From Daucus carota subsp. sativus (lineage: Eukaryota > Streptophyta > Magnoliopsida > Apiales > Apiaceae): a stretch of DNA of 64,000 nt. The position numbers and the translations under genes were made by a program. The stretch spans positions 52,873,214-52,937,213 of the forward strand of contig NC_030381.2 of assembly GCF_001625215.2 (NCBI RefSeq), written 5' to 3'. Positions 1 through 54,600 of the stretch are shown piece after piece. Below the pieces are notes generated by a model that saw only the letters and a list, made by a program, of their open reading frames with translations, was not told the DNA's origin and ran no database searches. Position 1 is the first letter of the stretch; every line of letters begins with the position of its first letter.

Positions 1-174
1 CTTCCGGCTTATGAATCCTTCTCAGAGAAATTTGGTAAACACATACAGAGTGAAAGATACAAGGAGAGATACATCAAGTACTCATCAGAGGACCTCCAGA
101 ATAAAATTCAAAATTTGTTTTTAGAATATCTAATAGTCCCCAGTGGTGCACAAGACATTGCAACAGTTATTTAA
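1..174 (+). CDS. EXO70: EXO70 locus A, 3' end only (partial)
   Basis: The window opens inside the last 57 codons of an EXO70 gene; the stop is TAA at 172-174. The visible residues begin LPAYESF and include the conserved EXO70 C-terminal block ERYKERYIKYSSEDL, nearly identical to locus B. The tail differs: where B stops soon after NLF, A reads on for 18 more residues (from LEYL to TVI). The 3' flank (175-310) is clearly similar to the 3' flank of B (3500-3660), so the duplicated unit included flanking DNA. EXO70 is a subunit of the exocyst, the complex that tethers secretory vesicles at the plasma membrane. The start and most of the body lie outside the window, so intactness cannot be judged. 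Confidence 0.85.
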   Translation, partial: LPAYESFSEKFGKHIQSERYKERYIKYSSEDLQNKIQNLFLEYLIVPSGAQDIATVI

Positions 175-1838: not shown

Positions 1839-3500
1839 ATGAAGGAATCTGATAGCGGAGATGCTACATTTACACGTATGGACTCTGCAGCCAAAGTAAT
1901 CACAGAATTTAAATCTGCATTATGGCTACAACAACTTATCAATGATGGAGACCGCAACAAATTTGATCAGTACTTGCGCGCAGTTAAAAAGATTCAGCGA
2001 TTGATTAAATCAGGCATGATTAGCGGTTATGAGAGTCAGGGAGGTCTTGCTATGAATACACTGCAGATGGTGTTTCAAGGAATATTGGACTGCTCAATCA
2101 GTGGGACTCACTCTGTAGCTTTGAAGTCCACCGTAAACTCCAGTAGTGTGTCTTGCAGTTCCGGCTATGAGTTGCAGGCTAGCAATTATACGGGCCATGG
2201 TGAGCTCTCCTCAGAGCAAGTCTATCGTCTTCGTGCCATAGTAAAGAGGATGAAATCTGCAGAATGCCTTAGGGACTGCATTGGGGCGTACAAAAACTCG
2301 AGGAGAGCAGTAGTGGTTGCAAGGTTTCTGAGGTTTGGTATTAATGACTTGCAATCATGGGACGAAGAGAAGTTTGCTGCAAAAATCACGTTATGGATAC
2401 AAGCGGCCAATACATTTTACAACACTATTTTCCCCAGGGAGAAAAAATATTATGACCAGATCTTCGCGGGGGTAAGGCCTGTTACGTATAGTAATCCTTT
2501 CCTGGATATAGTCGAACTTGTTGCAATTGAGTTGAACCACCTTGTCGATGTAAGTCCTAATGCATCATTTCAAAATTTGTTTGCTGTTTTGGACCTGTAC
2601 AAGGCTTTGCTTGGTTTGTTGCCTAAGATAAAAAACATATTCCACACTGTATCGTGCACAGATATATCCGATGGGGTGAGTAATACTATTAGTAGCCTAG
2701 AAACTCTGGTAAGGAAATTGTTTTCTGGATTCAAGGATGCTGTTCTTAATGAGAGCTCGAACAGTTTATCTCCAGAAGGCGGAGTTCATCATATGACGGA
2801 GTACACAATGAAGTTCATTACAAAAATTTCACTTTACAGGGAAGTGCTAACAAAATTGATTGTATCTCGCCCTACTGAAAGTTTAGGAAATGAGGCAGAT
2901 GCGAAAATTTTGGAAGCTTCAGGTGGTACACCGTTGCAACTGCACATGATTTGGATCATGATTAGTCTGAGAATAAATCTGGAGTCTAAATCTACTTTCT
3001 ATAAAGACTCATCATTAGGCTATTTATTCATTATGAACAATTTTAGCTATATAATTAAGATTCTGACAGATGATCCAGAACTACTAGATGTGATTGGGAC
3101 GGAGTATCAAACAGAGTTGAGCAAAGATGTCTTGCAGGCAGCACAGGACTATGTTTCATCTACTTGGCGCAGGGTTTTGTATTGTTCAAGACGCGATGGA
3201 TTAAGCTATATGTTTTCATTTTTTAGAAGGATTTTAAAGGATTCTGGGAAGAAGAGGTTCAAGGCTTTCAACACTGCACTTGAAAAGGTTTGTCAGACTC
3301 AATCTGCAAGAATCATACCAGATACGCACCTGCGTGCTCAGCTTCATGAGATGATACTGAGTAAGTTGCTTCCGGCCTATGAATCCTTCTTAGAGAAATA
3401 TGGTAGCCACATACAAAGTGAAAGGTACAAGGAGAGATACATCAAGTACTCATCAGAGGACCTCCAGAATAAAATTCAGAATTTGTTTTGGAATATCTGA
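1839..3500 (+). CDS. EXO70: EXO70 family protein, locus B
   Basis: Intronless frame of 553 residues. An N-terminal helical part (LQQLINDGDRNKFDQYL, about residues 30-46) is followed by a Ser-rich linker (about 85-115) and the EXO70 body from GELSSEQVYRL (about 122) to ERYIKYSSEDLQNKIQNLF at the C-terminus. Other family marks are HMIWIMISLRINLE, RFKAFNTALE and the LLPAYESF helix. Canonical plant EXO70s have roughly 600-680 residues, and the missing part is at the N-terminus: the DDIL-x-IFSNFDGRFS-type helix is absent. The ATG at 1839 aligns with an internal Met of locus D (MKVSDSED) and with Met15 of C, so it is a natural paralogue start. The protein would act in or beside the exocyst at the plasma membrane. 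Its 3' end faces locus C 488 bp away. Confidence 0.85.
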   Translation: MKESDSGDATFTRMDSAAKVITEFKSALWLQQLINDGDRNKFDQYLRAVKKIQRLIKSGMISGYESQGGLAMNTLQMVFQGILDCSISGTHSVALKSTVNSSSVSCSSGYELQASNYTGHGELSSEQVYRLRAIVKRMKSAECLRDCIGAYKNSRRAVVVARFLRFGINDLQSWDEEKFAAKITLWIQAANTFYNTIFPREKKYYDQIFAGVRPVTYSNPFLDIVELVAIELNHLVDVSPNASFQNLFAVLDLYKALLGLLPKIKNIFHTVSCTDISDGVSNTISSLETLVRKLFSGFKDAVLNESSNSLSPEGGVHHMTEYTMKFITKISLYREVLTKLIVSRPTESLGNEADAKILEASGGTPLQLHMIWIMISLRINLESKSTFYKDSSLGYLFIMNNFSYIIKILTDDPELLDVIGTEYQTELSKDVLQAAQDYVSSTWRRVLYCSRRDGLSYMFSFFRRILKDSGKKRFKAFNTALEKVCQTQSARIIPDTHLRAQLHEMILSKLLPAYESFLEKYGSHIQSERYKERYIKYSSEDLQNKIQNLFWNI

Positions 3501-3988: not shown

Positions 3989-5758
3989 TCAGGGGATCAT
4001 CAAATTTTCTTCTGTGCCATTGTGGACAATCAGTTTTTCCGTAAACAGAGTTTGAATTTTACTCTGAAGGTCCTCTGATGAGTACTTGATGCATCTCTCC
4101 TTGTACTTTTCGCTCTGTAGATGGCTACTGTACTTCTCTAAAAAAACCTTGTAAGCCGGAAGCAACTTGCTTAGTATCAACATATGAAACTGACTGTCAA
4201 TGTCAATGTCTGGCACAAACAATCTGGATTGACTGCGACAAGCCTCTTCAAATGTCGTGTTGAAAGTCTTGAACCTGTTCTTCACAGAATTCCTCGAAAT
4301 TCTGTTATAGAAGAGGAACTTATGCTTTAATCCATCATCTCTTAAACAGTACAAAACCCTGTCCCAAATTGTTGAAGAATAGTCCTGTCTTGCCTGCGCG
4401 ATATAGGTGCTCAACTTTGATGAATACTCCTTTCCAATTAAGTCTAGTAGTTCTGGAGATGATTTAATGGTCTTAATTACGTAGTTAACATTGGTGGTAA
4501 CAAATACATAGCGACACCACGCATCTCTATAATGACTAGATTTACGCTCCAAGTTGATTCTCAAGCTGATGATGATCCAAACTACGCGGAGTGCTAATGG
4601 GGTTCCACCTGCAGAATTCAGAAATTGATCATCTGCCTGATTTCCCAAGCTTTTAGTTGGGGACTCAATCATATATCTTAGCAGTTCCTTGTGCAATGAA
4701 ATTTTAGTAACATATTCCATTGCATATGCTGTCAAAAAATGAACCGTGCCTTCAGGAAGTAGCGCGGTTGATAGCTCATTTTGCACAGTATCCTCAAAGC
4801 TGCATAACAATTTCCCTACTAGAGTTAAGAGGCTCCGTCGAATATTAATTGCCCCCTGAGATATATTTATTGTCCATGAAGTGGAGAACATGATTAAAAT
4901 GTCAGGCAAGATGACATCCAGCGCGCTGTACAGATCTAAAACAGGAAACAGGTTTTGAAATGAAGCAATAGAACTTACAGCACTCGCAAAATTGTTCAAC
5001 TCAACTGCAACATGCTCGACGATAGGTACAAAACAGTTGTGATACGTCGCAGCTGTTACACCTTTGAAGATCTGCTCAAAAGATAGCCTCTCCCCAACAA
5101 AGAATCCGTCATAAAATATTTTGGCTACTTGAATCCATATGTTAATTTTTGCAGCAAACTGTCTCGAGTCTAATTTTTTCAAGTCGGTAGTGGTCCAGTT
5201 CCCAATCCGAAACCACTGATACTTTGCATCCACAGCCGACCTCCTTAAATTTTTGTACACGTCAATGCAGTCCCCAAGGCATTCTATAGCATTTAGCTTC
5301 TCAACTATGCTACGGAGATAATAAATTTTCTCTGAGGAGAGCTCATATTCGAAAGTACGATTTCTTCCCTGCAACTCATAACTATAAGTGCTAGGCACAC
5401 CACTAGAGTAAAGAGAGGAACTCGAAGGATCAGAACTTGTGTTGGCACTGATTGAGCAGTCCAATATTCCTCGAAACACCAGGTGCAGTGATTTTATAGC
5501 ACGACTTCCATGAGTCTCATAACCGGTGATTAACCCTGAATTGATGGATTGCTGAATCTCAACTACTGCATACAAGTATTGATTAAATTTCTCGCGGTCT
5601 CCATTATTGATAAGTTGTTGCAGCTGGAACGGATATCCTAATTCTTCGATTACTTTTTTTGCTGTCTTCAAATCTGGCACATTGGTATCCTCACATTTGG
5701 AGTTGGAATCCTTCATTTCTTGGAATGCCACAAGCGGTATGTGCAGATCATCTGCCAT
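3989..5758 (-). CDS. EXO70: EXO70 family protein, locus C
   Basis: Intronless frame of 589 residues; ATG at 5758-5756, stop TGA at 3991-3989. A 14-residue leader (MADDLHIPLVAFQE) precedes the segment shared with B. The helical N-terminal part (FQLQQLINNGDREKF) is followed by a Ser-rich linker (about 101-130) and the EXO70 body from about residue 139 (YELSSEKIYYLRSI). Family marks include RVVWIIISLRINLE, RFKTFNTTFEEA and ERCIKYSSEDLQSKIQ. The tail is extended by KLIVHNGTEENLMIP, which reads through sequence that is 3' untranslated in B. No canonical EXO70 N-terminal core helix is seen. The upstream block at 5815-5958 recurs near locus E and in relic H. C and D lie head to tail on the minus strand. 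Confidence 0.85.
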   Translation of the reverse strand: MADDLHIPLVAFQEMKDSNSKCEDTNVPDLKTAKKVIEELGYPFQLQQLINNGDREKFNQYLYAVVEIQQSINSGLITGYETHGSRAIKSLHLVFRGILDCSISANTSSDPSSSSLYSSGVPSTYSYELQGRNRTFEYELSSEKIYYLRSIVEKLNAIECLGDCIDVYKNLRRSAVDAKYQWFRIGNWTTTDLKKLDSRQFAAKINIWIQVAKIFYDGFFVGERLSFEQIFKGVTAATYHNCFVPIVEHVAVELNNFASAVSSIASFQNLFPVLDLYSALDVILPDILIMFSTSWTINISQGAINIRRSLLTLVGKLLCSFEDTVQNELSTALLPEGTVHFLTAYAMEYVTKISLHKELLRYMIESPTKSLGNQADDQFLNSAGGTPLALRVVWIIISLRINLERKSSHYRDAWCRYVFVTTNVNYVIKTIKSSPELLDLIGKEYSSKLSTYIAQARQDYSSTIWDRVLYCLRDDGLKHKFLFYNRISRNSVKNRFKTFNTTFEEACRSQSRLFVPDIDIDSQFHMLILSKLLPAYKVFLEKYSSHLQSEKYKERCIKYSSEDLQSKIQTLFTEKLIVHNGTEENLMIP

Positions 5759-5814: not shown

Positions 5815-5958
5815 TCTGCTTGGGATTAAAAAAGAGTATGTAGTTAGTCCTGAGGTAAACTTTGTATAGAAGATGACTTCTTTGTCTTTTAATGTGCCTT
5901 GTAATATGAGGATTTAGTTTCTAACGATCTATTAAGGATCTGAAAATATTGATGGTTA
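5815..5958 (-). promoter_or_regulatory. EXO70 upstream block shared by C, E and H
   Basis: On the minus strand this block reads ggactaactacatactc, a T-run, then aatcccaagcaga, just upstream of the start of C. The same order recurs upstream of E (12330-12358) and in relic H (20250-20432, where it is split by a small insertion). Conservation across three loci, when much of the spacer DNA has diverged, suggests a promoter core, or simply recent common descent. No function can be assigned. Confidence 0.45.
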
Positions 5959-6209
5959 CTCCCTCTGTCCCATTTAATTCTATACGTTTCTTTTTCACTG
6001 CTCGACACACACTTCAATGCTCTTGTAAAATATAGTTCTATAACTTATTTTTAAAATTTTCTTTTTCTGAATAAAAATATAACATTCAAACTTTTATTCA
6101 GAAAAGAAAAATCTTAAAAATAAGTTATAGAACTATGTAAAACAGGAGCATTAAAGTCCGTGTCGCGTCCCCGTCCCCCAATGTATACAACTCAGGGGGA
6201 CGGAGGGAG
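5959..6209. mobile_element. 251-bp Stowaway-like MITE, copy 1
   Basis: It starts CTCCCTCTGTCCCA and ends GGGACGGAGGGAG (inverted termini), with a TA target duplication at 5957-5958 and 6210-6211. The interior is a long hairpin (ctataacttatttttaa against its complement). A second copy of exactly the same length lies in opposite orientation at 47474-47724. The homologous unoccupied site survives in relic H at 20160-20161. Confidence 0.9.
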
Positions 6210-6409
6210 TACTACTAAAGCAAGTAATTATGCATCCATAACATAAAATAATTGCTCATCCAACTGATATCCCAAACTTTCAATTGGCCTTGATAAAATA
6301 AAATATATGTGCCAAAACACAATCTTTGAGGATTTACAAAATGATAGTGGGAAAACAGTATTAGATTGTAAAACAAGTTTCAAGTATCTATGCCACTTTC
6401 AATTGGTGG

Positions 6410-8842
6410 TCAGTGTTCTGAAAACAAAATTTTTAATTTGTTCTCCAGCTCCTGATTTGAATACTTGATGTATTTCTTCTTGAACCTTTCACTCTGTATA
6501 TGGCTACCAAATTCCTCCAGAAATGATCTATAAGCCGGAAGCAACTTACCTAGTATCAACTTATTGATCTGACAGCGCAGCTGAGTATCCAACACAGACA
6601 TTGTGGATTGGGCCTGACAAAACTCTTCAAAAGCAGTGTTGAAAGTCTTGAACCTATTCTTTACAGAATTCTTTGAAATCCCATTACAAAGTAGAAACTT
6701 AAAGTTTAATCCATCATCTCTTAAACAGTACAGAACCTTGTGCGAAGTGGATGAAGCATAGTTCTGTGCTGCCTGTAGCACATATTTGCTCAACTTTGAC
6801 GGGTACTCCTTCCCAATCAGCTCTAGTAGTTCTGGAGACCCTGTAATAGTCTTGATTACGTAGCTAACATTGTTCATGATGAATATATAACTCATTGACG
6901 AGTCTCCATAAAGACTAGATTTACCCTCTAAATTGATCCTTAAGCTTATCATGATCCAAATCATGTGGAGCCTTAATGGGGTTCCACTCAAAGCTTCCAA
7001 AAATTGTTCATCTTCCTGATTTCCCAACCTTTCTGTTGGTGGAGATACAATTATATTTGTGAGCAGATCTTTGTGCAATGAAATGCTCGTAACATACTTC
7101 ATGGCATATTCTGTTAAAGAATGAACCGCGCCTTTTGAAGGTAGGGTGTCTAATTGCTCATTGAGCACAGTATCCTGGAAGCTGGAAAACAATTTCCTTA
7201 TGACAGTTGTGAGGCTATTGATAATATTACTAGCCCTATAAGATATATTTGCAACTGATACCGAGTGGAACGTGCTCTGGATCTTAGGCAAGATAGCAAC
7301 CAGAACCTTGTGCAGATCCAAAACAGGGAAGAACTTTTGAAATGATGTAGTACAACTTACTGCTTCCGCGAAATTGTTCAACTCAATCGCAGCATGTTTA
7401 ACTATAGCCAGGAAACAGTTTTCGTCTGTGACAGCACTTACACCACTAAAGATCTGCTCATAATATTGCCTCTCCCCAGGAAATATAGCGTCATAACATT
7501 TATAGGCTGCTAGTATCCACATTCTGATTTTTGAGGTAAAGTCTTCGTAGTACAAACTTTGCAAGTCGTTGATGGTCCACCTACCAATGCAGAACCTCAT
7601 ATACCTTGCATCCACTGCTGACTTCCTTGAAATTCTGTACACGTTGATGCAGTCGCCAAGACATCCTGTGGAGTTTAGTCTATTTACTATACTGCACAGA
7701 CGATAGATTTGCTCACTCGAGAGCTCACCCTGGCCAGTCTGATTGCTTCCCTGCAACTCATAATTGTAACTGCTGGTCACACTACTAGAGTAAACAGTGG
7801 TAGTCATAGCATCATACTTTGTCCCAGTAACCGAGCAGTCCAAGATTCTTTGAAAGATCAGCTGCAGCTGTTTAATAGCTCGAGCTCCATGAGTGTCATA
7901 ACCGGAGATACCTGACCTAATTGATTGCTGGATCTCATCCACTGCATACAAGTACTGAGAAAATTTTCTGCGGTCTCCATCATTAATAAGCCCTTGTAGC
8001 TGCGATGGAGATTCAAATTCATTGATTACTTTTACTGCTGACTCCAAATCTGGCAACTTTGTGTCCTCGCTGTCAGAAACCTTCATGCTTTGTGATTTCT
8101 TAAGCTTCATAATCTGATTATTAAGGGATGCAGATAAGTAAGCGGATGTAAAATTACTCGGGGCTGAGATTTCAAATCCTGTACCAGATTCAAGGACTCC
8201 CACCACACAGTTTACTACCAGACAATCATTTTTTAGGTAGCCTAGTTTCTCCAAATATTTTTTTTTCATGTACTGGCCAAATCCCCATTGGCTTCCACGT
8301 CGTCTCATCAAGAAACCAAAATGTGTCTGCATGCTGTGCTTGCCTCTTCCACTCTGATCAACAAGCATCATCTCAAACACGGCATTCACATCAGTTCCTT
8401 CACTGTCCAATCTTATATAGAGCGAGATGTAATCTTTATACTCGTACTTCTTGCCATTGGGGTACAAATTTATGGCCCAGTCATGCCCTCCTGCTGAGAA
8501 AGTATCAGATGTCAAATACTTTCCAACTTCAAATCCTGCTCTTCGCGAGTAGCAATCAAATCTGAAAGTATAAGAACCAGTGACTTCATCATTTGGTGAT
8601 ACACTTGAGGTTTCTGGAGTTGACAGAGGCTCATGGATCTTGGTACTTTTGTACGAGGTTGAATTAACTTCTGGAGATGTTAAAACTCCAGTAGATGCCC
8701 AAGACGACAATAAACTGTTAGCTTCCGCGATCTCTGTTGATGATGCAACGGTCATTTCATCTTGGAAGTCCTCATCCATTGTGTCGGAAGACATGGATGG
8801 GAAATGCAAGTCTATTGCAGAAGGTACAATAACTGCAGACAT
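6410..8842 (-). CDS. MATH-EXO70 fusion protein, locus D
   Basis: Single uninterrupted frame of 810 residues; ATG at 8842-8840. Residues 1-85 are a Ser/Thr-rich leader. Residues about 86-217 are a MATH (TRAF-like) domain of the plant BPM / animal SPOP kind, with VTGSYTFRF, the DWAINLYPNGKKYEY strand, SEGTDVNAVFEMMLVDQSG and GSQWGFGQYMKKKYLEKLGY. W186 and F188 match the substrate-groove pair W131/F133 of SPOP. Residues about 260-810 are an EXO70 body like B, C and G, ending FKKKYIKYSNQELENKL. BPM proteins use MATH to bind substrates and a BTB domain to bind CUL3; no BTB is present here. The fusion could thus bring BPM substrates to a secretion-type scaffold, or act as a decoy (inference). The leader and upstream flank match locus G, which lacks MATH. 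I know of no described MATH-EXO70 protein, though I cannot search. Confidence 0.85.
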   Translation of the reverse strand: MSAVIVPSAIDLHFPSMSSDTMDEDFQDEMTVASSTEIAEANSLLSSWASTGVLTSPEVNSTSYKSTKIHEPLSTPETSSVSPNDEVTGSYTFRFDCYSRRAGFEVGKYLTSDTFSAGGHDWAINLYPNGKKYEYKDYISLYIRLDSEGTDVNAVFEMMLVDQSGRGKHSMQTHFGFLMRRRGSQWGFGQYMKKKYLEKLGYLKNDCLVVNCVVGVLESGTGFEISAPSNFTSAYLSASLNNQIMKLKKSQSMKVSDSEDTKLPDLESAVKVINEFESPSQLQGLINDGDRRKFSQYLYAVDEIQQSIRSGISGYDTHGARAIKQLQLIFQRILDCSVTGTKYDAMTTTVYSSSVTSSYNYELQGSNQTGQGELSSEQIYRLCSIVNRLNSTGCLGDCINVYRISRKSAVDARYMRFCIGRWTINDLQSLYYEDFTSKIRMWILAAYKCYDAIFPGERQYYEQIFSGVSAVTDENCFLAIVKHAAIELNNFAEAVSCTTSFQKFFPVLDLHKVLVAILPKIQSTFHSVSVANISYRASNIINSLTTVIRKLFSSFQDTVLNEQLDTLPSKGAVHSLTEYAMKYVTSISLHKDLLTNIIVSPPTERLGNQEDEQFLEALSGTPLRLHMIWIMISLRINLEGKSSLYGDSSMSYIFIMNNVSYVIKTITGSPELLELIGKEYPSKLSKYVLQAAQNYASSTSHKVLYCLRDDGLNFKFLLCNGISKNSVKNRFKTFNTAFEEFCQAQSTMSVLDTQLRCQINKLILGKLLPAYRSFLEEFGSHIQSERFKKKYIKYSNQELENKLKILFSEH
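8192..8587 (-). other. MATH domain coding segment within locus D
   Basis: These are codons for residues 86-217 of the fusion. The domain is complete, from the first beta strand (VTGSYTFRF) to the last (CLVVNCVVGVL), with no stop or frameshift. An unbroken fold in an open frame argues for selection rather than a chance insertion. Upstream (residues 1-85) and downstream (from DSEDTKLPDL) the sequence aligns with G, where TSATAYA is followed directly by FQDTKIPDL. Confidence 0.85.
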
Positions 8843-12497: not shown

Positions 12498-14009
12498 ATG
12501 TCGAAGAGTCTTGTCGATTCTACTACAGATGATCTGCAGAAGAATAAGAAGATGTTCCTAGATATATTGGACAGATCAACCTATGCACTCGAATATGATC
12601 GTTTGAGTTCCACTCTCCACTCTAGCAGTGTGACAAGCAGCTATGGCTATGAGTTTCAGGGAAGAAATCGTAATGGTGAAGGTGAGCTCTCCTCACCGCA
12701 AATGAACCATCTGCATAGTATAATAAAGAGGCTAAGCATCACAGGATGTCACGAGGCCTGCATCGAGGCCTACAGAAATTCAAGGAAGTCAGTGGTGGAT
12801 GCAAGGTGTAGGAGGTTTTGCACTGTAAAGAGAACCACTGATGATTTACAGAGATTTGAATGCGAAGAATTTGCCACAGAGATCAGAATTTGGATAGATA
12901 CTGCTAATATTTGTTATAACAATATCTTCCCCGAGGAGAGGAATTATTATGAGCAGATCTTTTATGGCGTGGGATCTGTCACAGATGACAACTGTTTCCT
13001 GGCTATAATCAAGCCTGTGGCAATCCAGTTGAACAACTTTGCAGATGCAGCAAGCTACATTTCATCATTTCAAAAATTGTTCGCTGTTTTGGATCTGTAC
13101 AAGGCTCTGTTCAGTATCTTGCCTAAGATTCAAGGCACGTTTAATTCTGCATCATGCAGAATTATATCAGAAGCGGCACTAAAAACTATTGATAGCCTTG
13201 CAAATCAAGTAAGAAAATTGTTTTGCAGCTTTGAGGATACGGTGTTTAATGAGCAATCAAAAACTTTACCTGCAGAGGGCACAATTCATTCTATGACAAC
13301 GTATGCAATGAAATTTGTTACTAGCATTTCAGTGTACAAGGAAGTGCTAACAAATGTAATTGTATCTCGGCCCACAAAAAGCTTGGGAACTCAGGCGTAT
13401 GATCAGTTTTTGGAAGCTTCAAGGGGAACCCCGTTAGAACTCCACGTGATTTGGATCATAATAAGCTTGAAAATAAATTTGGAGGGCAAATCTAGTCTTT
13501 ATGGAGACTCGTCATTGCGCCAGGTATTTATTATGAACAATGTTAACCGCATATTTAAGACTATTACAGGGTCTCCAGAACTGCTAAAAATGATTCAGGA
13601 GGAGTATCTATCCGAGCTGAGCAAAGAGGTCGTGCAGGCAGCGGAGGACTATTCTACATCAGTTTCAAACAAGTTTCTGTATTGTTTGAGAGACGATGGA
13701 TTAAACTTCAAGTATTCATTTAGTAACTGGATAGTAAAGAACTCTGTGAAGAAAAGGATCAAGGCTTTCAACACTACATTCGAAGAGGCTTCTCGGATTC
13801 AATCAAGAATGCCTGTGTTGGATGTAGACATACCCTTTCATCTTCATGAGCTCATTCTGAGTAAGTTGCTTCCGGCTTATAAGCTGTTTCTCCAAAAATA
13901 TGGGAGCCTTTTACAGAGTGAAAGGAACAAGGACAGATACATTAAGTACACATTGGAGGACCTTGAGCATACAGTAAAAACTTATTTTCAGCATGCTCCT
14001 GAGTGCTGA
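12498..14009 (+). CDS. EXO70: EXO70 family protein, locus E, N-terminally shortened
   Basis: A 503-residue intronless frame from the ATG at 12498. An in-frame TTG at 12471 is not a credible plant start. The ATG aligns with the start of G (both preceded by an acaataa motif), but after about 20 residues the protein jumps to the Ser-rich linker (SSVTSSYGYEFQG), skipping the LQQLI-to-GILDC helical part found in B, C, D and G. The body from GELSSPQMNHLHS to the C-terminus (KDRYIKYTLEDLEHTVK) is complete, with HVIWIIISLKINLE and RIKAFNTTFEEAS. The internal N-terminal deletion keeps the frame open, so it may still make protein, or it may be an early pseudogene. It lies divergent from D. Confidence 0.75.
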   Translation: MSKSLVDSTTDDLQKNKKMFLDILDRSTYALEYDRLSSTLHSSSVTSSYGYEFQGRNRNGEGELSSPQMNHLHSIIKRLSITGCHEACIEAYRNSRKSVVDARCRRFCTVKRTTDDLQRFECEEFATEIRIWIDTANICYNNIFPEERNYYEQIFYGVGSVTDDNCFLAIIKPVAIQLNNFADAASYISSFQKLFAVLDLYKALFSILPKIQGTFNSASCRIISEAALKTIDSLANQVRKLFCSFEDTVFNEQSKTLPAEGTIHSMTTYAMKFVTSISVYKEVLTNVIVSRPTKSLGTQAYDQFLEASRGTPLELHVIWIIISLKINLEGKSSLYGDSSLRQVFIMNNVNRIFKTITGSPELLKMIQEEYLSELSKEVVQAAEDYSTSVSNKFLYCLRDDGLNFKYSFSNWIVKNSVKKRIKAFNTTFEEASRIQSRMPVLDVDIPFHLHELILSKLLPAYKLFLQKYGSLLQSERNKDRYIKYTLEDLEHTVKTYFQHAPEC

Positions 14010-15413: not shown

Positions 15414-17141
15414 ATGACTCTTGCACCTCCAATGACATCTGATCATACTGATCTGAAGGCATCAGAGTCCGAAGATGCCTTTAAGTCGCAACATTTGGAG
15501 TCAGCAGCAAAGCTAATCATAGAATTTGGATCTCCATTGCAGCTACAACAACTTATCAGAGTTGAAAACCGCGACCAATTTGATCAGTACTTGTGTGCAG
15601 TAGATGAGGTTCAGCAATCAATAAAGTCAGGTACGGCCTCCAGTTACGAGACTCATGGAATTCGTGCTATAAAAACACTGCATACTATTTCGAGGAATAT
15701 TGGGATGCTCAATCCGTGCAACCGCTTCTGATTCTTTGAATTCCACTGTTTACTCTAGTAGTCTGTCCAGCACTAGTTATGAGTTGCAGGGAAGCAATCA
15801 AACGTCCCATCGCGAGCTCTCCACAGAGGAAGTTTATTATCTCCGTGACATTGTAAAGAAGCTGGACTCCACAGGATGTCTTGGGGACTGCCCTGACGTG
15901 CACAGAATTTCAAGGAAGTCCGCGGTGGAAGCAAGGCTTCTGCAGTTTCACATTAGGAACTGGACCGCTAATGACTTGCAAATTTTGGACAGTGTACAGT
16001 TTGCTGAAAAAATTAGAATGTGGATCCAAGCAGCCAACATATGTTACACTAATATATTTCCCGTGGAGAGGCAATTTTTTGAGCAGATGATGGTGTAAGC
16101 GATGTCAGAGATGACAATTGTTTCCTGGCTACAGTCGAACATGTTGCAGTTGAGTTGAACAATTTTGCGGAAGCTGCAAGTACTATTGCCTCATTTGCAA
16201 AACTCTTTGCAGTTTTGGATCTGTACAGGGCTCTTTCTGTTATCTTGCCTATGATTCAAGATATTTTCCATTCTGTTTCAAGCATATCCCGCGGGGCAAT
16301 TAAGACTATAAATAGCCTCCCCACTCTAGTAAGAAAATTGTTCAGCAGCTTTGAGGATACTGTGCTTAATGAGCTATCGAACGCTCCAATTCCAGAAGGG
16401 AAAATTCATTTTCTGACAGAATATGCAATGATATATCTGACTAGAATTTCACTGCACAAGGAACTGCTAACACATATAATTGTATCGAAACCGACTAAAA
16501 GCCTGAGAAATCAGGAAGATGACCTGTTTCTGGATGCTTCAGGTGGAACCCCATTAGAACTTCACATGATCTGGATCATAATAAGCTTAAAAATCAATTT
16601 GGAGCGTAAATCTGAATTATACCAAGACTCCACGTTACGCTATGTATTCCTCACAACCAATGTCAACTACATAATCAAGACTATTACAGCATATCCGGAA
16701 CTACTAAAGATGATTGGGAAGGAGTATCTATCAAAGTTGAGCAACTATGTCGTGCAGGCAGCACAGGACTATATTTCATCCATCTGGCACAGGGTTTTGC
16801 ACTGCTTAAGAGACGATGGACTACATTATCAGATTCCATTTTATAATGGAATATCGAGGAAATCTGTGAAAAATAGGTTCAAGGCTTTCAACACTACATT
16901 CGAAGAGGTTTGTCAGACTCAATCTAGTATGCTTGTGCCGGATATTCACATACACTGTCAGCTTCATAAGCAGATGATAAGTAATTTGCTTCCGGCTTAT
17001 GAGTCGTTTCTGCAAAAATATGGTATGCAGATACAGGGTGAAAGGTACAAGGAGAGATACATCAAGTATACATCAGAGGAGCTCAAGTTCAAGATGTTAT
17101 CAATTACTGAAGCTAATCTAGCTCTAAATTCATTTGAATAG
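15414..17141 (+). pseudogene. EXO70: EXO70 locus F, two frameshifts
   Basis: Three overlapping pieces in different frames together cover a full EXO70. Piece 1 (ATG 15414 to about 15680) has the N-terminal helical part (LQQLIRVENRDQFDQYL). Piece 2 (about 15680-16098) runs from the Ser-rich linker through KSAVEARLLQFHIRNW to FEQM. Piece 3 (about 16092-17141) begins GVSDVRDDNCF and continues to ERYIKYTSEELK. Alignment with B shows a 2-bp deletion near 15680; alignment with G shows a 4-bp deletion near 16088. The rest is little decayed, so loss is recent, although sequencing error at these two points would also give this picture. A GTG upstream at 15363 is in frame but not a plausible start. The upstream flank is of the D/G type. 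Confidence 0.8.
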
Positions 17142-17917: not shown

Positions 17918-19843
17918 ATGTCTACATTTGTTTTACCTCCTCTAATAAAACTGCGTTTCCCTACTGACACAATTGGTGAAGACTACTACAGAGAAGAAAC
18001 AAGCGTTTCATCATCAGCAGAGATCACGGAAACTAACAGTTCTTTGTCATCTTGGACATGTCCAGGGGTTCTGACATCCACAGAAATTACTTCAACTGCT
18101 TATGCAGACACCAAAGTCCAGCAGCCACCATTAACTTCAGCAACCGCTTATGCCTTTCAGGACACTAAAATACCAGATTTGGGATCAGCTACAAAAATAA
18201 TTAACTATGTAGATGGACGCAGCTCATTCAGTTCTTTAATGCAGCTACAAGAACTTATCTATGATGCGCGGAGCACGTTCACTGAGTACTTGTATGCAGT
18301 AGATGAGGTTCAGCAATCAACTAAGTCCGGTATGATCTCCAGTTATGAGACTCAAAGACGTGCAATGAAAACACTGCAGCTGGTTTTTAAAGGAATATTA
18401 ACCTTCTCAATTAGTGGAACCAGATCTTATCTCAGGAGTTCCACAGTGTACTCAAGTAGTGTGACTAGCAGTTCTAGCTATGAGTTGCAGGGAAGCGGTT
18501 ATACTGTGCAAGGTGAGCTGTCCTCAGAGCAGGTCTATCGTCTCCAAAATATAGCAGAGAGGCTGAATTCCACAGGATGTCTTGGGGACTGCATAGAGGC
18601 TTACAAGATTTCAAGGAAGTCAGCAGTGGATGCAAGGTTTCTGAGATTTGGCTTTGGGAAGTGGAGCATCGACGACTTACAGGGCTTGGACTCTGAAGAA
18701 TTCACTGCAAATATTAGGTTATGGATACAAACAGCCAGGAAATTCTACAACAGTTTCTTTCCCGGGGAGAGGCAATATTATGAGCAGATCTTCGGAGGTG
18801 TAAGCTCTGTCACATATGACAACTGTTTCCTACCTATAGTCAAAGAGGTTGCAATTGAGTTGAACAATTTTGCAAATGCTGTAAGTTCCATTGCATCATT
18901 TCAGAAACTATTTGCTGTTTTGGATCTGTACAAGGCTCTGTCTGTTTTAATACCTGAGATTCGAAACATGTTCTCCACTAAATTATCTGCATATATATCT
19001 CAAGGGGCAATAAAGACTATTGAAAACCTTGCAACTCTAGTAAGGCAACTGTTTTCCAGCTTTGAGGATACTGTGCTCAACGAGAGATTGAACACTCTGA
19101 CCCGAGATGGTTCAATCCATTCTTTGACTAAATACGCGATGAATTATGTTACTAGCATCTCACAGTATGAGGAACTTCTGAAAAGTATAATCTTATCTGG
19201 GCCAATTGAAAGTGTGGGATATCAGTTGGATGAGCAATCATTGGAGGATTCCGGTAAATCTCCATTGCAACTCCACCTGATTTGGATCATGATTAGCCTA
19301 AGAATTAATCTGGAAGGCAAATCAAGATGTCATGAACATTCATCACTGCGCTATGTATTCATCATGAACAACGTTAACTATGTAATCAAGACAATTATAG
19401 GGTCTCCGGAATTACTAGAGTTGATTGGGAAGGAGTATGTGTTGAAATTGAGCAAAGATGTCATACAGGCAACACACTTCTATTCTTCATCCATGTGGCC
19501 CAGGCTTTTATACTGTTTAAGGGATCCTAGACTAAGCAATAAGTTTACATTTTACGACAAGCTTTCAAAGGATTCCCTGAAGGATAGGTTCAAGGCTTTC
19601 AACACGACATTTGAAGAGGTCTGTCAGACTACATCTTTTGTGTTGGATATTCAGTTGCGCGATCAGCTTCATAAGTTCATACTTAGAAAGTTGCTTCCGG
19701 CTTATAAGTGCTTTCTAGAAAAATACGGGAGCCACACACTGAGCAAAAGGTACAAGGAGAAATATATCAAGTACTCCCCAGAGGACCTCGACTATGCTTT
19801 CAGAACACTGACTAATGACAATGGTTTTTCTGTTGAATGTTAA
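17918..19843 (+). CDS. EXO70: EXO70 family protein, locus G, with D-type leader but no MATH
   Basis: Intronless frame of 641 residues. Residues 1-80 form a Ser/Thr-rich leader that aligns with residues 1-80 of the fusion protein D (shared FP, then D-DEDF/GEDYY, SSAEI, NSSLSSW, GVLTS, TKV). Where D has its MATH domain, G continues at once with FQDTKIPDLGSATKI. Then come the helical part, a linker (SSSVTSSSSYELQG), and the EXO70 body from GELSSEQVYRL to EKYIKYSPEDLDYAF. HLIWIMISLRINLE, YVFIMNNVNYVIKTI and RFKAFNTTFEEV are intact. This is the longest plain EXO70 here and close to canonical length, but its leader is unlike the usual EXO70 N-terminal helix. It is probably functional, and it is the key comparison for the origin of D. 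Confidence 0.87.
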   Translation: MSTFVLPPLIKLRFPTDTIGEDYYREETSVSSSAEITETNSSLSSWTCPGVLTSTEITSTAYADTKVQQPPLTSATAYAFQDTKIPDLGSATKIINYVDGRSSFSSLMQLQELIYDARSTFTEYLYAVDEVQQSTKSGMISSYETQRRAMKTLQLVFKGILTFSISGTRSYLRSSTVYSSSVTSSSSYELQGSGYTVQGELSSEQVYRLQNIAERLNSTGCLGDCIEAYKISRKSAVDARFLRFGFGKWSIDDLQGLDSEEFTANIRLWIQTARKFYNSFFPGERQYYEQIFGGVSSVTYDNCFLPIVKEVAIELNNFANAVSSIASFQKLFAVLDLYKALSVLIPEIRNMFSTKLSAYISQGAIKTIENLATLVRQLFSSFEDTVLNERLNTLTRDGSIHSLTKYAMNYVTSISQYEELLKSIILSGPIESVGYQLDEQSLEDSGKSPLQLHLIWIMISLRINLEGKSRCHEHSSLRYVFIMNNVNYVIKTIIGSPELLELIGKEYVLKLSKDVIQATHFYSSSMWPRLLYCLRDPRLSNKFTFYDKLSKDSLKDRFKAFNTTFEEVCQTTSFVLDIQLRDQLHKFILRKLLPAYKCFLEKYGSHTLSKRYKEKYIKYSPEDLDYAFRTLTNDNGFSVEC

Positions 19844-22177: not shown

Positions 22178-23054
22178 TCAGTTAGCACCTCTGTTTATCA
22201 CTTCTTTGTACCTCATTATCGAATCAATCCTCTGTAACTTCAGCTGCTGCTTGAATTTGTTGATGAAATCATCAGCTTTTGCATCGACTTCTTCGTCAAC
22301 GGCCGTCACTTTAGCACCCCGTTCCCTCACAGTCACCGGCCGGCGAGCCTCCACAATGTCGTCCTCCTCGAAATGCGCAAAAGGGGACTTCATGCTCGCC
22401 GACTTCTTCATCTTCGCCGACAACTTCGCTGGAACCTCGCCGGAGGCCGGTTTTGTATCGGAAGTAGTTCTGCTAAAATGACTGTCGGTGAGCTTCTCAA
22501 AATGACTGTACACTTCATCTAAGCTCTGTGGGACCACATCTTCCACTTCCGTTGATTCCTCTTCATGGGGTTCTTGGATCTGAGATTCTGATTCATGGGG
22601 TTCTCTTAATGGGCCTGATTCTTGATGGGTTTGTTCAAAACTGAACTGGGCTTGGACTGCCATTGTTTCATGGTCATCAAACAAGTAATGTGTTTGTGTC
22701 TCTATAGCTGACTGCAGTTCTTGATTCAAATGTTGTTCAGTTGTGTCTGAATCTAATCCTTCAGTAAAACTCTTGAAATTGATAGATTTGATGCGTTGGA
22801 GCACCGATGGGGATTTTTGAAGCACAGGGGTATTTTGGTCATTCTGGTGGTTCTGAGTGTTGGATTCTTGTTTTTCTTGTTTGTGTTCTTGGTTTTCTTG
22901 GTTTTGTTGTTGTTGTTGAGGGGAGGTTGATAAGTTGGAGCTGAAGAGAATGGTGCCTATCATGACATTGAGAAGAACAAAGAGGACAGTTGGAGTGAAC
23001 CAGCTGTTCATTGATGCCCAGATTGAAGAAGGGTTAGACACAGATTCTTCAAAC

Positions 23055-23056
<2 letters not shown>
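22178..23056 (-). CDS. DUF4408/DUF761 membrane-anchored protein
   Basis: Encodes 292 residues in one exon; ATG at 23056-23054, stop TGA at 22180-22178. An in-frame ATG further up (23230) would add 58 residues, but these are mostly Ser/Pro/Thr and a His-Thr run read from a dinucleotide repeat, so I prefer the inner start. Residues 12-40 (SSIWASMNSWFTPTVLF, then a hydrophobic run to FSS) match DUF4408, with one membrane helix at about 21-40. The middle is Gln/Glu/Ser-rich and disordered. The end (DDFINKFKQQLKLQRIDSI, about 264-282) is the DUF761 motif of cotton-fibre-expressed-type proteins. The family is plant-specific with no established biochemical role; some members respond to stress or pathogens. 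Confidence 0.85.

Positions 23057-23090
<34 letters not shown>
23057..23090. repeat. (GT)n microsatellite abutting a start codon
   Basis: A run of about 16 GT units directly precedes the DUF4408 start (CA repeat in the 5' leader on the coding strand). Length variation here would alter the leader only if the start at 23056 is right, and an N-terminal His-Thr tract if the upstream ATG is used. Confidence 0.9.
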
Positions 23091-23092
<2 letters not shown>

Positions 23093-23997
23093 GTGGGGAG
23101 AGAAGGTGAGAAAGTGTGTGTTTTGTAGGGGGGAGAGAGAGGAGTGGGAGAGTGTGGTTGATGTTATAAGGTATAGTGGTGGAGTAAAGAGAAGGGGAAT
23201 AGGGGAGGGGGATGATTGATGGTGATTCAATTCAACTTATTTTTAATTTTTATGGTCATGGATGTTTTATTTCGTATACTTAAATAAAAATATTTATGAG
23301 GGTGTTGGAACTTGGAAGTGCACAGTTTATTTCAAATGATGAATTTTAGATGATAAAATTTTTATTTTCATTTTATTTTTTGAATTTATATTATTTAAAT
23401 ATCTTGAATGTTAAATGAAATTTAAATTCGTTCGAATTCAGAATTTCAAATGAAATTTGAATTTTCATATAGATCGTAAAAATATTTGAAAAAAATGAAA
23501 GAATGTATAATAAGCATGACCCGTATGTGGGGATAATCCGTTATAATTTGTAACCGTTGTATTAAAAAATGACATTATAATTTATAACTATTGTATAGAA
23601 AAATACAGATGAACGTTTCTTATGATGATGGAAGTAAAGTAAGAGATTATTTTATTTATTATGGTCGATATAGATATATGTTTTATTACGATTGAAATTT
23701 GTAACGTAAAATATTATCTTTGTATTATATTAAGATGAATGTCCGTTTTTAGACGGTTGAAACATGAAAACGTTGAGATTCTTTCTAGTGATAAATTTTG
23801 ATACAAAAATTTATAAATATATAATGTAAGGATTATCTTTTTATTATAATTTCTTACATGTTTTTGTGTGTATATTTTCTCTTGACTGAAGTATATGATG
23901 TAAAAGATTATCTTTGGATTGTGTAAGAATTATTGAGATATAAGGGTCATATTCCAGAGAGAATCCCTAAAGCCACTATCTTATTTCTCGTATTAAT

Positions 23998-34101: not shown

Positions 34102-34895
34102 TTTTCTCTCATTCTCCTTCTCTCTCTGCATATACATACACACTTTTTTCATCACAAAAACAACCCAATTCCAAATCCAAACAAACCCCAGGGATCGATC
34201 CTGCGCGGCCCATCTGCGTGCTGCAGGATAACAAAATCCCATTCAGTCATTTTCCCCACAATGTGTCATCACCTCTTCTTGATTTCTTCAAGTTTATAGA
34301 GATTTGTGTCGTTTTATGCAGTTCTGATCATTACCCTTTTCAAGATTTGTTATAATTTTAAGACCCATGTCATTTATTGAGGTTCGTTTTTCGATATGTG
34401 AATTTTTAATGTTGGTGTATTTAAGGTTCTTGAATGATGGGCTTATGGGTTGTTTATGTTTTTGCAGGAATTGGCTCCGGGGTTTTGGCTTGGGCAGCTG
34501 AGTGGCAAGATCTCGGGACACACAAGATCTTTTTCTGGTGAATTCACTCCTCATTTTGTGATTTTATGATTTTTTTATGTATATTTGTGATTGAAATGTT
34601 TGTGAGTTTGTTTGTTCTAATACAGTAAGTTTGTTAGAATTCTGTTAGGTGATGTTTCTTAGTATTTGATTTTATATGATTATATGGGAGGTATGAAGTT
34701 TGAGAGAAATGCTTCTTTCATTGCTTGTGCATGTTATTGTTCTAGATTTTTTGCAAATTGGATTGTCTTATAAGTGATAGTTTTGGAGTATTACCATTTT
34801 CGCGATTTAGGCAAGTAGGATTTCTGAATTATTAATTCTTTGAATTGCGAACATTGTACATACCTTATTGCAGCCAACATATTGCAGTATGAACT
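34102..34895 (+). promoter_or_regulatory. Probable 5' leader with introns of the zinc transporter
   Basis: A candidate non-coding exon lies at 34468-34538 (acceptor tttttgcag before it, donor gtgaattc after it), and the coding exon is preceded by acceptor ttattgcag ending at 34873. A short frame (34889-34921, 10 codons) starts 7 bp before the main ATG and overlaps it out of frame. Confidence 0.45.
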
Positions 34896-36697
34896 ATGAA
34901 GTGTCGCTTTGTCGGTTATAATTGTTTTGGTGTTTATATTTGCTCTAATTTGGGGTTTTTTGTTGCGTCTTCAAAAGGCTCTTTGGTGCAGAAAATTTCT
35001 GAATCTGTGTCCACGGCTACTTGTGGCGGCAGTGGTGGTGAAATGGATACTTGTCGTGATGAGAAAGCAGCTTTGTTCCTCAAAATGTTGGCTATTGCCG
35101 CCATACTCTTTTTTGGAGTTTGTGGAGTAGCAACGCCATTGATTGGCAAGAAACGTCGTTTTCTGCAGACAGACTCGAATTTGTTTTTTGCCGCCAAGGC
35201 TTTCGCTGCAGGTGTCATACTAGCAACCGGATTTGTTCACATGTTACCGGATGCTACAGAAGCCCTTACTGATGAGTGTTTACCGACAAACCCCTGGTCC
35301 AAGTTCCCATTCTCAGGATTTTTTGCAATGATGGCTGCACTTATCACATTGGTTGTTGACTTCGTTGCAACTCAATATTATGAAAAAAAGCAAGAGAAAC
35401 AGATTCCTTCCCTTGTGGATTCTGTTGATATAGTATCAGGATCAGGGGCTGTGCCTGTAGAGACTAACGAGAATAGTGGAAAAGTCTTTGGTGAAGAGGT
35501 TGGAGGAGGGATGCACATTGTGGGCATGCATGCTCATGCTGCTCACCATAGTCATAATCATTTGCATGGACAAGAGGCTTGCGATGGCCACATGAAACAG
35601 CAAACTGATTCACACTCCCATTCCCACTCGCACGGGTTTGGTGGGGACGTCGAGAGTAGCATCAGGCATGTTGTTGTTTCACAGGTAACTTTTCCATCTT
35701 GTCTCTTCATTGACGACTTCTTGCCCTTTCTTATTGGAGCAAGAGACACTTGCATTTTTTTTTTTGTATTGTTTAATTAATAATTTGAAAGATCCTGGTG
35801 GAAAGTAACTTAATATGCAGTAGTCTCACTCTCACCACCACTTCAGATTCTCCGCGAGGCACTGTGTTGAGTTCTCCATGACCGCCCCCACCTCCCACTA
35901 TTAATCTCAAATTTCCACAGCTCCCCTGCTCTGCTAGTTGTGAATCGGGTTATTCCGAAAGTTTAGCAATAGATAATTTTTTTTTCATCTTGGCTAAATA
36001 AGTACTAGTAAGATAGTTAACAATCCTGAGAGTCTGAGTCTGCCTGTTTTGTTAATACTAGAAGCACCTATTCAAAGGTGCCTAGGGAAGATCGAAGTAT
36101 ATAGGTTCCAGATTTGACAAGAACAAAATTAAGTGTAATGGGAAACAAATTCCAACTATTGTTTTGTGTCAGGATTAAGTGGATTTTTGGTTGTTGTCAC
36201 TGAAATATCTGGCATTGAAAGTATTGCTATGATCTTTGCAGGTTTTGGAACTTGGAATTGTCTCACACTCGATTATCATTGGACTTTCACTTGGAGTTTC
36301 ACAAAGTCCTTGTACCATAAAACCCTTGATCGGTGCATTAGCTTTCCATCAGTTCTTCGAAGGGTTTGCACTTGGAGGCTGCATATCTCAGGCTCAATTC
36401 AGCACCTTCCACAGCTCAATGATGGCATGCTTTTTTGCAATAACAACACCCGTGGGAATTGCTGCCGGGACTGGTCTCGCATCATTTTATAATCCCAACA
36501 GTCCAAGAGCGTTGGTGGTAGAAGGCATCTTTGACTCCGTATCTGCTGGTATATTAATCTACATGTCTTTAGTAGACTTAATTGCTGCGGATTTCTTGAG
36601 TAAACGAATGAGTTGCAATGTCAGACTCCAAGTTGCATCTTATTTTGCACTTTTCCTTGGAGCTGGATTGATGTCATGCCTTGCACTTTGGGCTTAA
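34896..36697 (+). CDS. ZIP4/IRT3-like: ZIP zinc/iron transporter, IRT3/ZIP4 type
   Basis: Two exons, 34896-35684 and 36242-36697, intron 35685-36241 (GT-AG, phase 0), give 414 residues. The sequence has an extracellular CRDEKAA segment, TM1 ([20 protein letters not shown]), the TM2 block [18 protein letters not shown], and [20 protein letters not shown] cytosolic His-rich loop ([14 protein letters not shown] and HSHSHSHG) precedes TM4 ([12 protein letters not shown]) and TM5 ([11 protein letters not shown]), whose His residues line the metal site; the end is [14 protein letters not shown]. The family imports Zn2+ (and Fe2+/Mn2+) across the plasma membrane. The [16 protein letters not shown] loop and the terminal ADFLSKRM segment place it with Arabidopsis IRT3/ZIP4. 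The start is uncertain: ATG 34896 gives a plausible signal segment, while ATG 35043 (MDTCRDEK) would start just before TM1. Two ZDREs upstream predict induction by zinc deficiency. Confidence 0.92.
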
Positions 36698-51608: not shown

Positions 51609-54600
51609 ATGTCGAAGATGAAACACTTGTTGCGTAAGCTTCACATCGGCGGCGGTGGCGCCGACAATTTCGCCGATCACCACCGCGTGGAGGCGAGTTC
51701 GTCGGTGAGCGCGAGCCCGACGCCGCAGACGACGCCGGTTGCGGCGGAGACGGCGGCGTATTCGGCATTGACGAGCGGGGAATCGGCGGCCGCGGAGGAG
51801 GCGTACTTCGAGGAGGAGTATCAGATGCAGTTGGCGTTGGCGATCAGTGTTTCGGATCCTGAGACGAGAGAAGATGCGGAGACGGCGCAGATCAAGGCTG
51901 CCAAGCAGCGGAGCTTGGGGCTTTCGGGTTCGGAGAGTGTAGTGGAGTTTTTGTCGGTTCGGTATTGGGTAATTTGCTGATTTGCGGTTAATTTTTGTTA
52001 ATTGAAGTGTTTAATTGTTGTTACTGAAGGTGTTGATGTATTGTGCGGTTAATTAAGTTAAAACTGTTGGTATTGTTATTAATTAAAGTGTGTAATTGTC
52101 ATTTTGTTGTATTGAGCATTTAATTAAGTGAAAACTACCGATTTTGGTATTATTCTTTAAGCATTTCTTTTTCATTTGTTACTGTTCTGCTGCGCGGGAC
52201 AGTTAATTAAGCTAACATTGTGAGATTTTGTCATTAATTGAAGCCTTTGATTCTTGTTTCTATATTGGGAAGTTAATTAGGTTAAAATTGATTTGTTTTT
52301 TTAGTTTGTTGGAGTTTCTAATCTCAAAATTGGCCTATCACTGTCTTTATATTAGGATCTAGATGTTGAGCGGTACTTTGAGCTCACTTTAACTAGTAAA
52401 CCTTCATACTGTGGAATTAAAGTTTTGTATTTGGATTATTGTCACGGTAACGAATAGGTATTAGTTTTCCTTTGCGGGCAAATATAAGTGCTTGTTCTTG
52501 TTTGTGTTAATTATGTTAGCAGTGGCGTAGTAGGGTTTTGCTTAAAGTAGATGCTAGTCTGTCATTCTTATGTTTTCCCTAGGGTTTGAATACTGACTAA
52601 TTAGCCGAATTTCTTCTCTGCAGAGTAATAATGTTGTTAATTACGACGAGAAAGTGATGAATGGATTTTATGATATTTATGGAGGTTCTTCAAACTTAAC
52701 CACCCAAGGGAAAATGCCATCACTAGTGGATCTTGAAGCAATTCCTGTATCAGACAGTGTTGATTATGAAGTTATATTAGTGGATCGGGCAAATGATATA
52801 GAGCTGCGGAAACTTGAGGAGAAAGTCGTTGGATTATTATTGGATTATCAGGCATTGGGGGCTGGTCAAATTATGAATGGTTTGGTCCAGATTATTGCTG
52901 ATATAGTCGTCGATAGAATGGGTGGTCCAGTCAGTAATGCAGATGAATTGCTAAAAAGATGGACTAGCAGGAGTTATGAAGTGCGGAATTCCCTAAAATC
53001 TGTCATAATCCCCATTGGTTGTCTCGAAGTGGGGCTTTCACGCCACAGGGCCTTACTTTTTAAGGTTTGGAAATTCGAAGTTTCTCTTTCTCGCATCTCT
53101 CAAGTCACATGTGTGTTAATGTAGTTCACGACAATTTTTTCCCATTGGACATAATTCATTTTATATTTATTACCGCTCTTAGGGTGTAAGAATTAAGAGA
53201 CCAATCCTTAGTTTAAAAAAATGAGCAAAATTATTTGTAGAACTTGTCTTCACTTCGTAGTATATCACTATTAATATTATTTGATGTGTAAAGGTTTGGG
53301 TACTATGTGTTTACTTTGGTCATTGCAAATTAGGTTAGGACTTTGTTTTCACACTCATCTATAAGAAGTGAACATGAACTCAAGCATTACATAAGTACCT
53401 TGGTTCTCATCTCTTCTAGTAATATTTAAAATCATAAACTTGTTCTGGTATATAGTGTTCTTACTACAGACCTGATCTTTTTAATCATTTCAGTCTTTCT
53501 AGTTGCACCCCAATATTTGGTAGACAGCATTCTACATTGTGTTAAAACGGGTTTGCGACAGTGATACGAGACATACAGGTGGACAAGTTCCTATGCTACT
53601 ATGGAGAATCGAAAATCAATTAGGACTAAAATTTTCAGTGACAACCTTGAATAGATATCAAACAGAATTGAAAATGTTTTTATCAAAATATCTTTCTGCA
53701 AAATATTTATGTGAATTAGAATTGCTAATAATTTGAGTCATAACAATATTTGGTTCTTTTTGCCAAGTAGAAGTAATATAGAGCCATTGATTAATAATTA
53801 AGAGATAATTTTGTTAGTTTTTTATGCACGTGTAAATGAATTGTGTGGAAGCATTATTAATTAATGGATTTATGTATAAAAGTTATATTGTAATATTTTG
53901 TACAATGGTTGCTAGGTACTCGCGGATAGGATCAACCTTCCATGTATGCTGATTAAGGGTAGCTATTATACTGGCACCGATGATGGAGCTGTAAACTTGA
54001 TCAAAATTGATGATGGAAGGTATTTACGATAATAATATGTGAAAACTAATTCTGTTAAGTTCTATTATTCTATACATTACTTCTATATATAGCTCTGTAC
54101 TGATTGTGTATATGTTCTAAATTAAAGTTTCATACTGAATTCTTAACTCATCATAACTTAGGCTAACTCTTAAATGAAAAGAAAAAAGACTAATATTAGC
54201 TGGTAGATAGTATGTGAGGTAAAAGAATTTCTGAGTGAATCTTGTTATAAGTAATGCAATTCTATTTTGTGTTTAATTGTTCCCATTGTCATAGAACCAC
54301 ATGTATAAAAGCCGAAAATACTTGCCTTGATCTTCCATCTGTTAAAGATCTTATGTTCCGAAATTATTTGGTTCAGTGTATTATAATCTAATGTATGCAT
54401 TCCGATTGCTGATAATCTGTTCTCATTGTCGTGGTTCTGATATTTTTAAGCTTTATAACATGGATCCCTCATTTGGCACAAAGCATCCTTGACTAACAGT
54501 AGGCACTGTAGAAGGGTTTGAGGTTTTGGACCATTGGTGAGCCACAGTTCTTTCGTATTATGATGTCAAATGAACACTCAATAGAAATATGAATACAATG

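Follow-up and report, generated by a model that had tools for sequence, protein, structure and literature searches.

The N-terminal (CorEx) region of EXO70 is the part that docks it to the exocyst, through EXO84. In Marchantia, association of an EXO70 with the exocyst is reported to be determined by an N-terminal helix, and negatively charged EXO70 N termini are reported to accompany loss of exocyst association (PMC12626893). For the Arabidopsis EXO70 subclades B, C, D and F, the same source gives a predicted negative N terminus and diffuse localisation, and AtExo70E2, H1 and H7 are described there as found at the cell plate (PMC12626893). Reduced N termini have been reported for EXO70D, E and H (PMC9258809), and in autophagy EXO70D1-3 reportedly act as receptors with type-A ARRs as their cargo (PMC11864678). 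BPM proteins are the plant MATH-BTB adaptors of CUL3; their clients, as given in a review, include DREB2A, by way of a Ser/Thr-rich region, ATHB6 and the clade A PP2Cs, and the passages of that review on EXO70 and on MATH-BTB proteins handle the two families separately (PMC8125534). An earlier note on the DNA studied here, made from its letters alone, knew of no described protein with a MATH-EXO70 layout, and we likewise found none among 5.39 million open-access papers.

The window, that is the whole stretch of 64,000 nucleotides analysed here, comes from chromosome C1 of carrot (C1:52,873,214-52,937,213) and is without any N. It carries an 810-codon frame, FUSa, that the ORF list confirmed to be uninterrupted from ATG to stop, just as the earlier note had read it. 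Its parts, in window positions, are as follows.

6410..8842, minus strand: FUSa, the whole MATH-EXO70 frame, 810 codons plus stop (ORF list and Pfam)
8588..8842, minus strand: leader, residues 1-85, acidic and Ser/Thr-rich
8201..8575, minus strand: MATH domain of BPM type, residues 90-214 (Pfam and sequence comparison)
8285..8287, minus strand: codon of Trp186, the intron place of BPM-like genes, unbroken in FUSa
8087..8200, minus strand: linker, residues 215-252, fast-evolving
6413..8086, minus strand: EXO70 body, residues 253-810 (Exo70_C at 6434-7522)

A Pfam search placed MATH_2 (residues 90-214, E 1.8e-29, model positions 1-136 of 136) and MATH PF00917 (residues 107-214) ahead of Exo70_C (residues 441-803, E 7.2e-78, model positions 2-370 of 372) in this same frame. 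The BPM/SPOP-type MATH domain is therefore complete, as claimed before, with its WGF motif at residues 186-188. The accompanying claim of a complete EXO70 body stood for the Exo70_C part, which is near full, but not for the N-terminal end, which is missing in an alignment with the EXO70s of the genome; Exo70_N is matched in part (residues 266-312, model positions 2-48 of 83). Among solved structures, the MATH part comes closest in sequence to human SPOP, and the EXO70 part to OsExo70F2 (7pp2) and AtEXO70A1 (4rl5). BTB, already thought absent, gave no Pfam match in FUSa at E 0.1, nor at E 0.01 in the three related frames described below (FUSb, FUSc and FUSd); NB-ARC had no Pfam match in any of the four frames, and a search of NCBIfam returned a single match, far below its cut-off. 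Residues 217 to 260, where by the earlier note a stop or frameshift would speak against a fusion, are read without a stop. A crude splice scan counted 14 YAG triplets in codons 201-310 and found no donor-like site (GTRAGN and GTATGN) in codons 1-110; a bacterial-type promoter scan was set aside as meaningless in plant DNA. Between FUSa and the neighbouring gene E2, at 5957-6210, lies an inverted-repeat element whose ends, CTCCCTC..GTCCC, resemble those of Stowaway MITEs.

Profile searches covering the window's own genome alone (441,086,747 bases, 11 contigs) returned at least 103 matches of MATH_2 and at least 38 of Exo70_C. The two share one frame in four cases, always in the same order and with both domains above the Pfam cut-offs, at two places on one chromosome (C1, ~3.80 Mb and ~52.8 Mb).

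FUSa: in the window, C1, 810 codons
FUSb: C1:52.844 Mb, 768 codons stop to stop
FUSc: C1:3.799 Mb, 772 codons stop to stop
FUSd: C1:3.803 Mb, 749 codons stop to stop

Leader, MATH, linker and EXO70 read through stop-free in all four, and four frames so ordered exceed chance. Among the 49 genome matches of the whole FUSa protein there was no fifth intact fusion. A 280-bp relic at C4:24732191-24732470 (L072) is 89.7% identical in nucleotides to positions 583-863 of the FUSa coding sequence; it runs from the last part of MATH through the linker into the first part of EXO70, with one frame change by translation. On C3, two tandem structures were also seen: three exact 1695-bp units at 5449300-5453700 (L073), each with a 206-nt FUSa-like EXO70 fragment (91.7%) that is longer in the third unit, and a big array of MATH_2 exons at 60.21-60.33 Mb, many of them with internal stops.

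In an alignment, the MATH parts of FUSa and FUSb share 46-50% identity with six BPM-like genes of the genome, and 29% and 24%, respectively, with the TRAF-like gene L012. L019, the one of these six BPM-like genes put through Pfam, has a BTB after its MATH (E 3.2e-15). All six have a GT donor inside the codon for the WG-motif Trp. The acceptor side was located in four of them, where the reading frame picks up again behind an AG, whereas none of the four fusions is interrupted at that codon. Since the fusion MATH is without the intron that BPM-like genes carry, a processed (intron-free) BPM transcript is its likely, and simplest, source. The MATH parts of FUSa and FUSb are 54-55% identical to those of FUSc and FUSd, above their identity to the BPMs, and in the MATH tree all four fusions share one side of a branch. 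A single gain of MATH is nevertheless unproven, because the FUSc and FUSd domains are only 42% identical to each other (either being 37-48% identical to the BPMs) and the support of that branch is just 79/81.

The positions of the SPOP groove (Y87, F102, Y123, W131 and F133) were compared by aligning the fusion MATH parts with the BPMs. FUSa, FUSb, FUSc and FUSd have Y, Y, Y and F at Y87, and all four have F, W and F at F102, W131 and F133; at Y123, which lies beside an alignment gap and was counted back from the Trp to the BPM Tyr, they have F, F, S and C. Four of the five positions are aromatic in every fusion, Y123 being non-aromatic in FUSc and FUSd. BPM and SPOP have already revealed the peptide code of MATH, which makes the clients of the fusions directly searchable. 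We also considered the SPOP-type Ser/Thr motifs of the leader as a built-in pseudosubstrate and rejected this, for they occur in three of five leaders but 16-42% of shuffles equal that.

FUSa lies in a cluster of EXO70-only genes and copies, whose members in the window are the following.

1..126, plus strand: 3' end of E0, an EXO70-only gene starting before the window (C1:52871693-52873339)
1839..3500, plus strand: E1, EXO70-only gene (Pfam)
3989..5758, minus strand: E2, EXO70-only gene (ORF list and Pfam)
12498..14009, plus strand: E4, EXO70-only frame, shortened N-terminally (Pfam)
15453..17141, plus strand: E5, EXO70-only copy in three frame pieces (two frame changes)
17918..19843, plus strand: E6, a FUSa-like leader followed by EXO70, without MATH (Pfam)

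The pieces of E5 overlap slightly (15453-15701, 15682-16092 and 16068-17138), and E5, broken as it stands, is probably a recent pseudogene unless introns explain its frame changes. Residues 1-79 of FUSa align with E6 residues 4-80 at 47.5% (E about 1e-15); since the leader ahead of MATH is common to the EXO70-only E6, MATH sits inside an EXO70 gene. Elsewhere in the window Pfam identified ordinary neighbours, namely a DUF761/DUF4408 protein (22181-23236), exons of a ZIP transporter (34893-36694) and an EDR1/CTR1 peptidase-like exon (52597-53121), and a 401-codon open frame at 54884-56086 had no Pfam match at E 0.1.

The EXO70 tree has FUSd branching first and FUSc next, followed by the 52.8-Mb cluster, where FUSa and FUSb stand among EXO70-only copies; cluster and fusions together are sister to L039/L041 and away from OsExo70F2. 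The trees omit the intron-split loci L063-L068, and the split genes E5 and L047 entered as one open piece each. With groups picked after viewing a first tree, AU tests rejected a single clade of fusions (p-AU 9.8e-7 for 15 rows and 5.1e-5 for 26 rows) but not a single clade of EXO70-only copies (p-AU 0.068). The EXO70-only neighbours would thus probably be later losses of MATH, and one gain with one to four losses appears the simplest reading of these trees; alternatively, MATH may have been gained repeatedly or gene conversion may have acted inside the cluster. A search for MATH remnants in the DNA upstream of L039, L041, L058 and six EXO70-only copies gave two hits of at most 20.8 bits; these were discarded, shuffled sets (n=20) reaching 25.0 bits.

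Aligning the members of the genome allowed the residues ahead of the EXO70 core to be counted. There are 64-110 in seven of them (L040, L042, L043, L044, L047, L048 and L052), 49 in L045, 33 in L046, 7 in L039 and 5 in L041; E0 and E1 have 13, E2 has 29 and E6 has 87, which are its leader, and L058 and E4 begin within the core. The fusions have 190-265, made up of leader, MATH and linker. The canonical CorEx region is absent from them and MATH stands in its place; because the EXO70 part is without this region, membership of FUSa in the exocyst is not a given. Furthermore, the 70 residues after MATH (a stretch chosen here, not by PMC12626893) are net negative in all four fusions, at -3 to -13. 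The charge of the EXO70 C terminus was tried as a distinguishing mark and is not distinctive, being net negative in FUSd. It seems likely from these comparisons that the fusion proteins are outside the exocyst, and only likely, because EXO70E and EXO70H proteins with reduced N termini still reach the cell plate. These two subclades, in which a good deal of the N terminus is missing and some members are nonetheless reported at the cell plate, could favour a fusion that joins the exocyst by other contacts, bringing the clients of MATH to sites of secretion. We regard such a variant as improbable, as the N-terminal helix is reported to decide association in Marchantia (PMC12626893) and the residues after MATH are negative throughout.

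Selection on the two halves was estimated as dN/dS (Nei-Gojobori with codon bootstrap). Between FUSa and FUSb it is 0.11 (0.05-0.21) for MATH over 133 codons and 0.29 (0.22-0.38) for EXO70 over 558 codons, MATH being the lower in 999 of 1000 bootstrap pairs; the leader, at 0.70 (0.29-1.70) over 45 codons, is under little constraint. In the five farther fusion pairs the synonymous sites of MATH are near or past saturation, and for this reason their ratios were not used. Selection keeps the MATH-EXO70 genes in working order, and MATH is the more constrained half in the FUSa-FUSb pair. This speaks against an artefact, whether a chimaeric assembly, a pseudogene or halves transcribed separately. 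The Met near FUSa residue 252 does match the start of E0 and E1, so that a shorter EXO70-only product is possible; four open copies that have diverged, both halves under purifying selection, and a junction relic on C4 make an artefact very improbable all the same.

The strong constraint on MATH is in keeping with a binding role, and it does not discriminate among the three roles put forward in the earlier note, namely recruitment to a membrane, protection of BPM substrates and bait for an effector. In the second of these, the fusion, acting without CUL3, would occupy either the substrates of BPM or BPM itself and thereby protect them, EXO70 serving for localisation only. A strongly constrained BPM-type MATH with no BTB match would suit such a competitor, yet MATH by itself would suffice for it, and in four copies constraint acts jointly on the two halves; we consider it somewhat unlikely. 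As immune bait, the fusion would be a decoy or a guarded effector target, like EXO70F/FX of grasses. The tandem cluster with its gain and loss of copies is in keeping with this, as are EXO70s reported as integrated in NLRs of Poales (PMC13291817) and the EXO70 bodies of the cluster, which are less constrained (dN/dS 0.28-0.44 in ten other pairs) than those of the sister pair L039-L041 (0.12). However, MATH evolves slowest, unlike a fast-changing surface, and NB-ARC is absent from the FUSa frame and from eight further window frames scanned, which makes a bait quite unlikely. The earlier reading of FUSa is thus partly supported, and what is new here is the four-gene family, the origin of MATH and the replacement of the N terminus.

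Our preferred reading, held tentatively at a probability of about 0.42, is that FUSa belongs to a small family of EXO70 adaptors that recruit clients independently of CUL3 and perhaps of the exocyst, in which an EXO70 with a short N terminus gained a retro-copied MATH. The gain, probably a single one from a processed BPM transcript, would have set MATH between the leader and the EXO70 body. Its groove probably still binds Ser/Thr-rich peptides of the BPM/SPOP type. Without BTB, the part for CUL3 and for dimers, a client would not be passed to CUL3; without the canonical N-terminal region for EXO84 docking, it would most likely not be passed to the exocyst either, and would be taken along whichever route, to a membrane or to degradation, is served by this EXO70 body. 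We guess that the L039/L041 pair, sister to the fusions in the EXO70 tree, may be EXO70D; if so, a vacuolar route can be put forward as a hypothesis. A BPM MATH retrocopy might then have made an EXO70D-like protein, uncoupled from the exocyst, act as a selective autophagy receptor that moves clients of CUL3 and the proteasome to the vacuole. This is speculative and unlikely; if true, it would be a case of protein fate re-routed through gene fusion. Of 14 recurrent [WFY]xx[LIV] columns, four are kept in all four fusions; each of these lies in the EXO70 body and occurs in EXO70-only copies as well, and they are uninformative on ATG8.

Like BPM and animal SPOP, the fusions have a MATH of BPM type with aromatic residues at four of the five SPOP groove positions; unlike them, they have no BTB match, no MATH intron and an EXO70 behind MATH. 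With the CorEx-short plant EXO70s (D, E and H) they share the EXO70 body and a short N terminus as in L039 and L041, but they carry leader, MATH and linker in front. EXO70D1-3 have the same kind of body and, as far as they are described in PMC11864678, no MATH; the bringing of proteins to degradation, reported for them there, is only proposed for the fusions. MATH-EXO70 may serve as a natural test of whether EXO70s freed from the exocyst become modules elsewhere, the 'complex escape' of PMC12626893. NLR-EXO70 fusions and the EXO70FX of grasses, as presented in PMC13291817 and PMC9258809, likewise combine an EXO70 with a foreign domain, loss of CorEx and changes in copy number, whereas the partner here is MATH and not NB-ARC, and the position in the tree is away from OsExo70F2.
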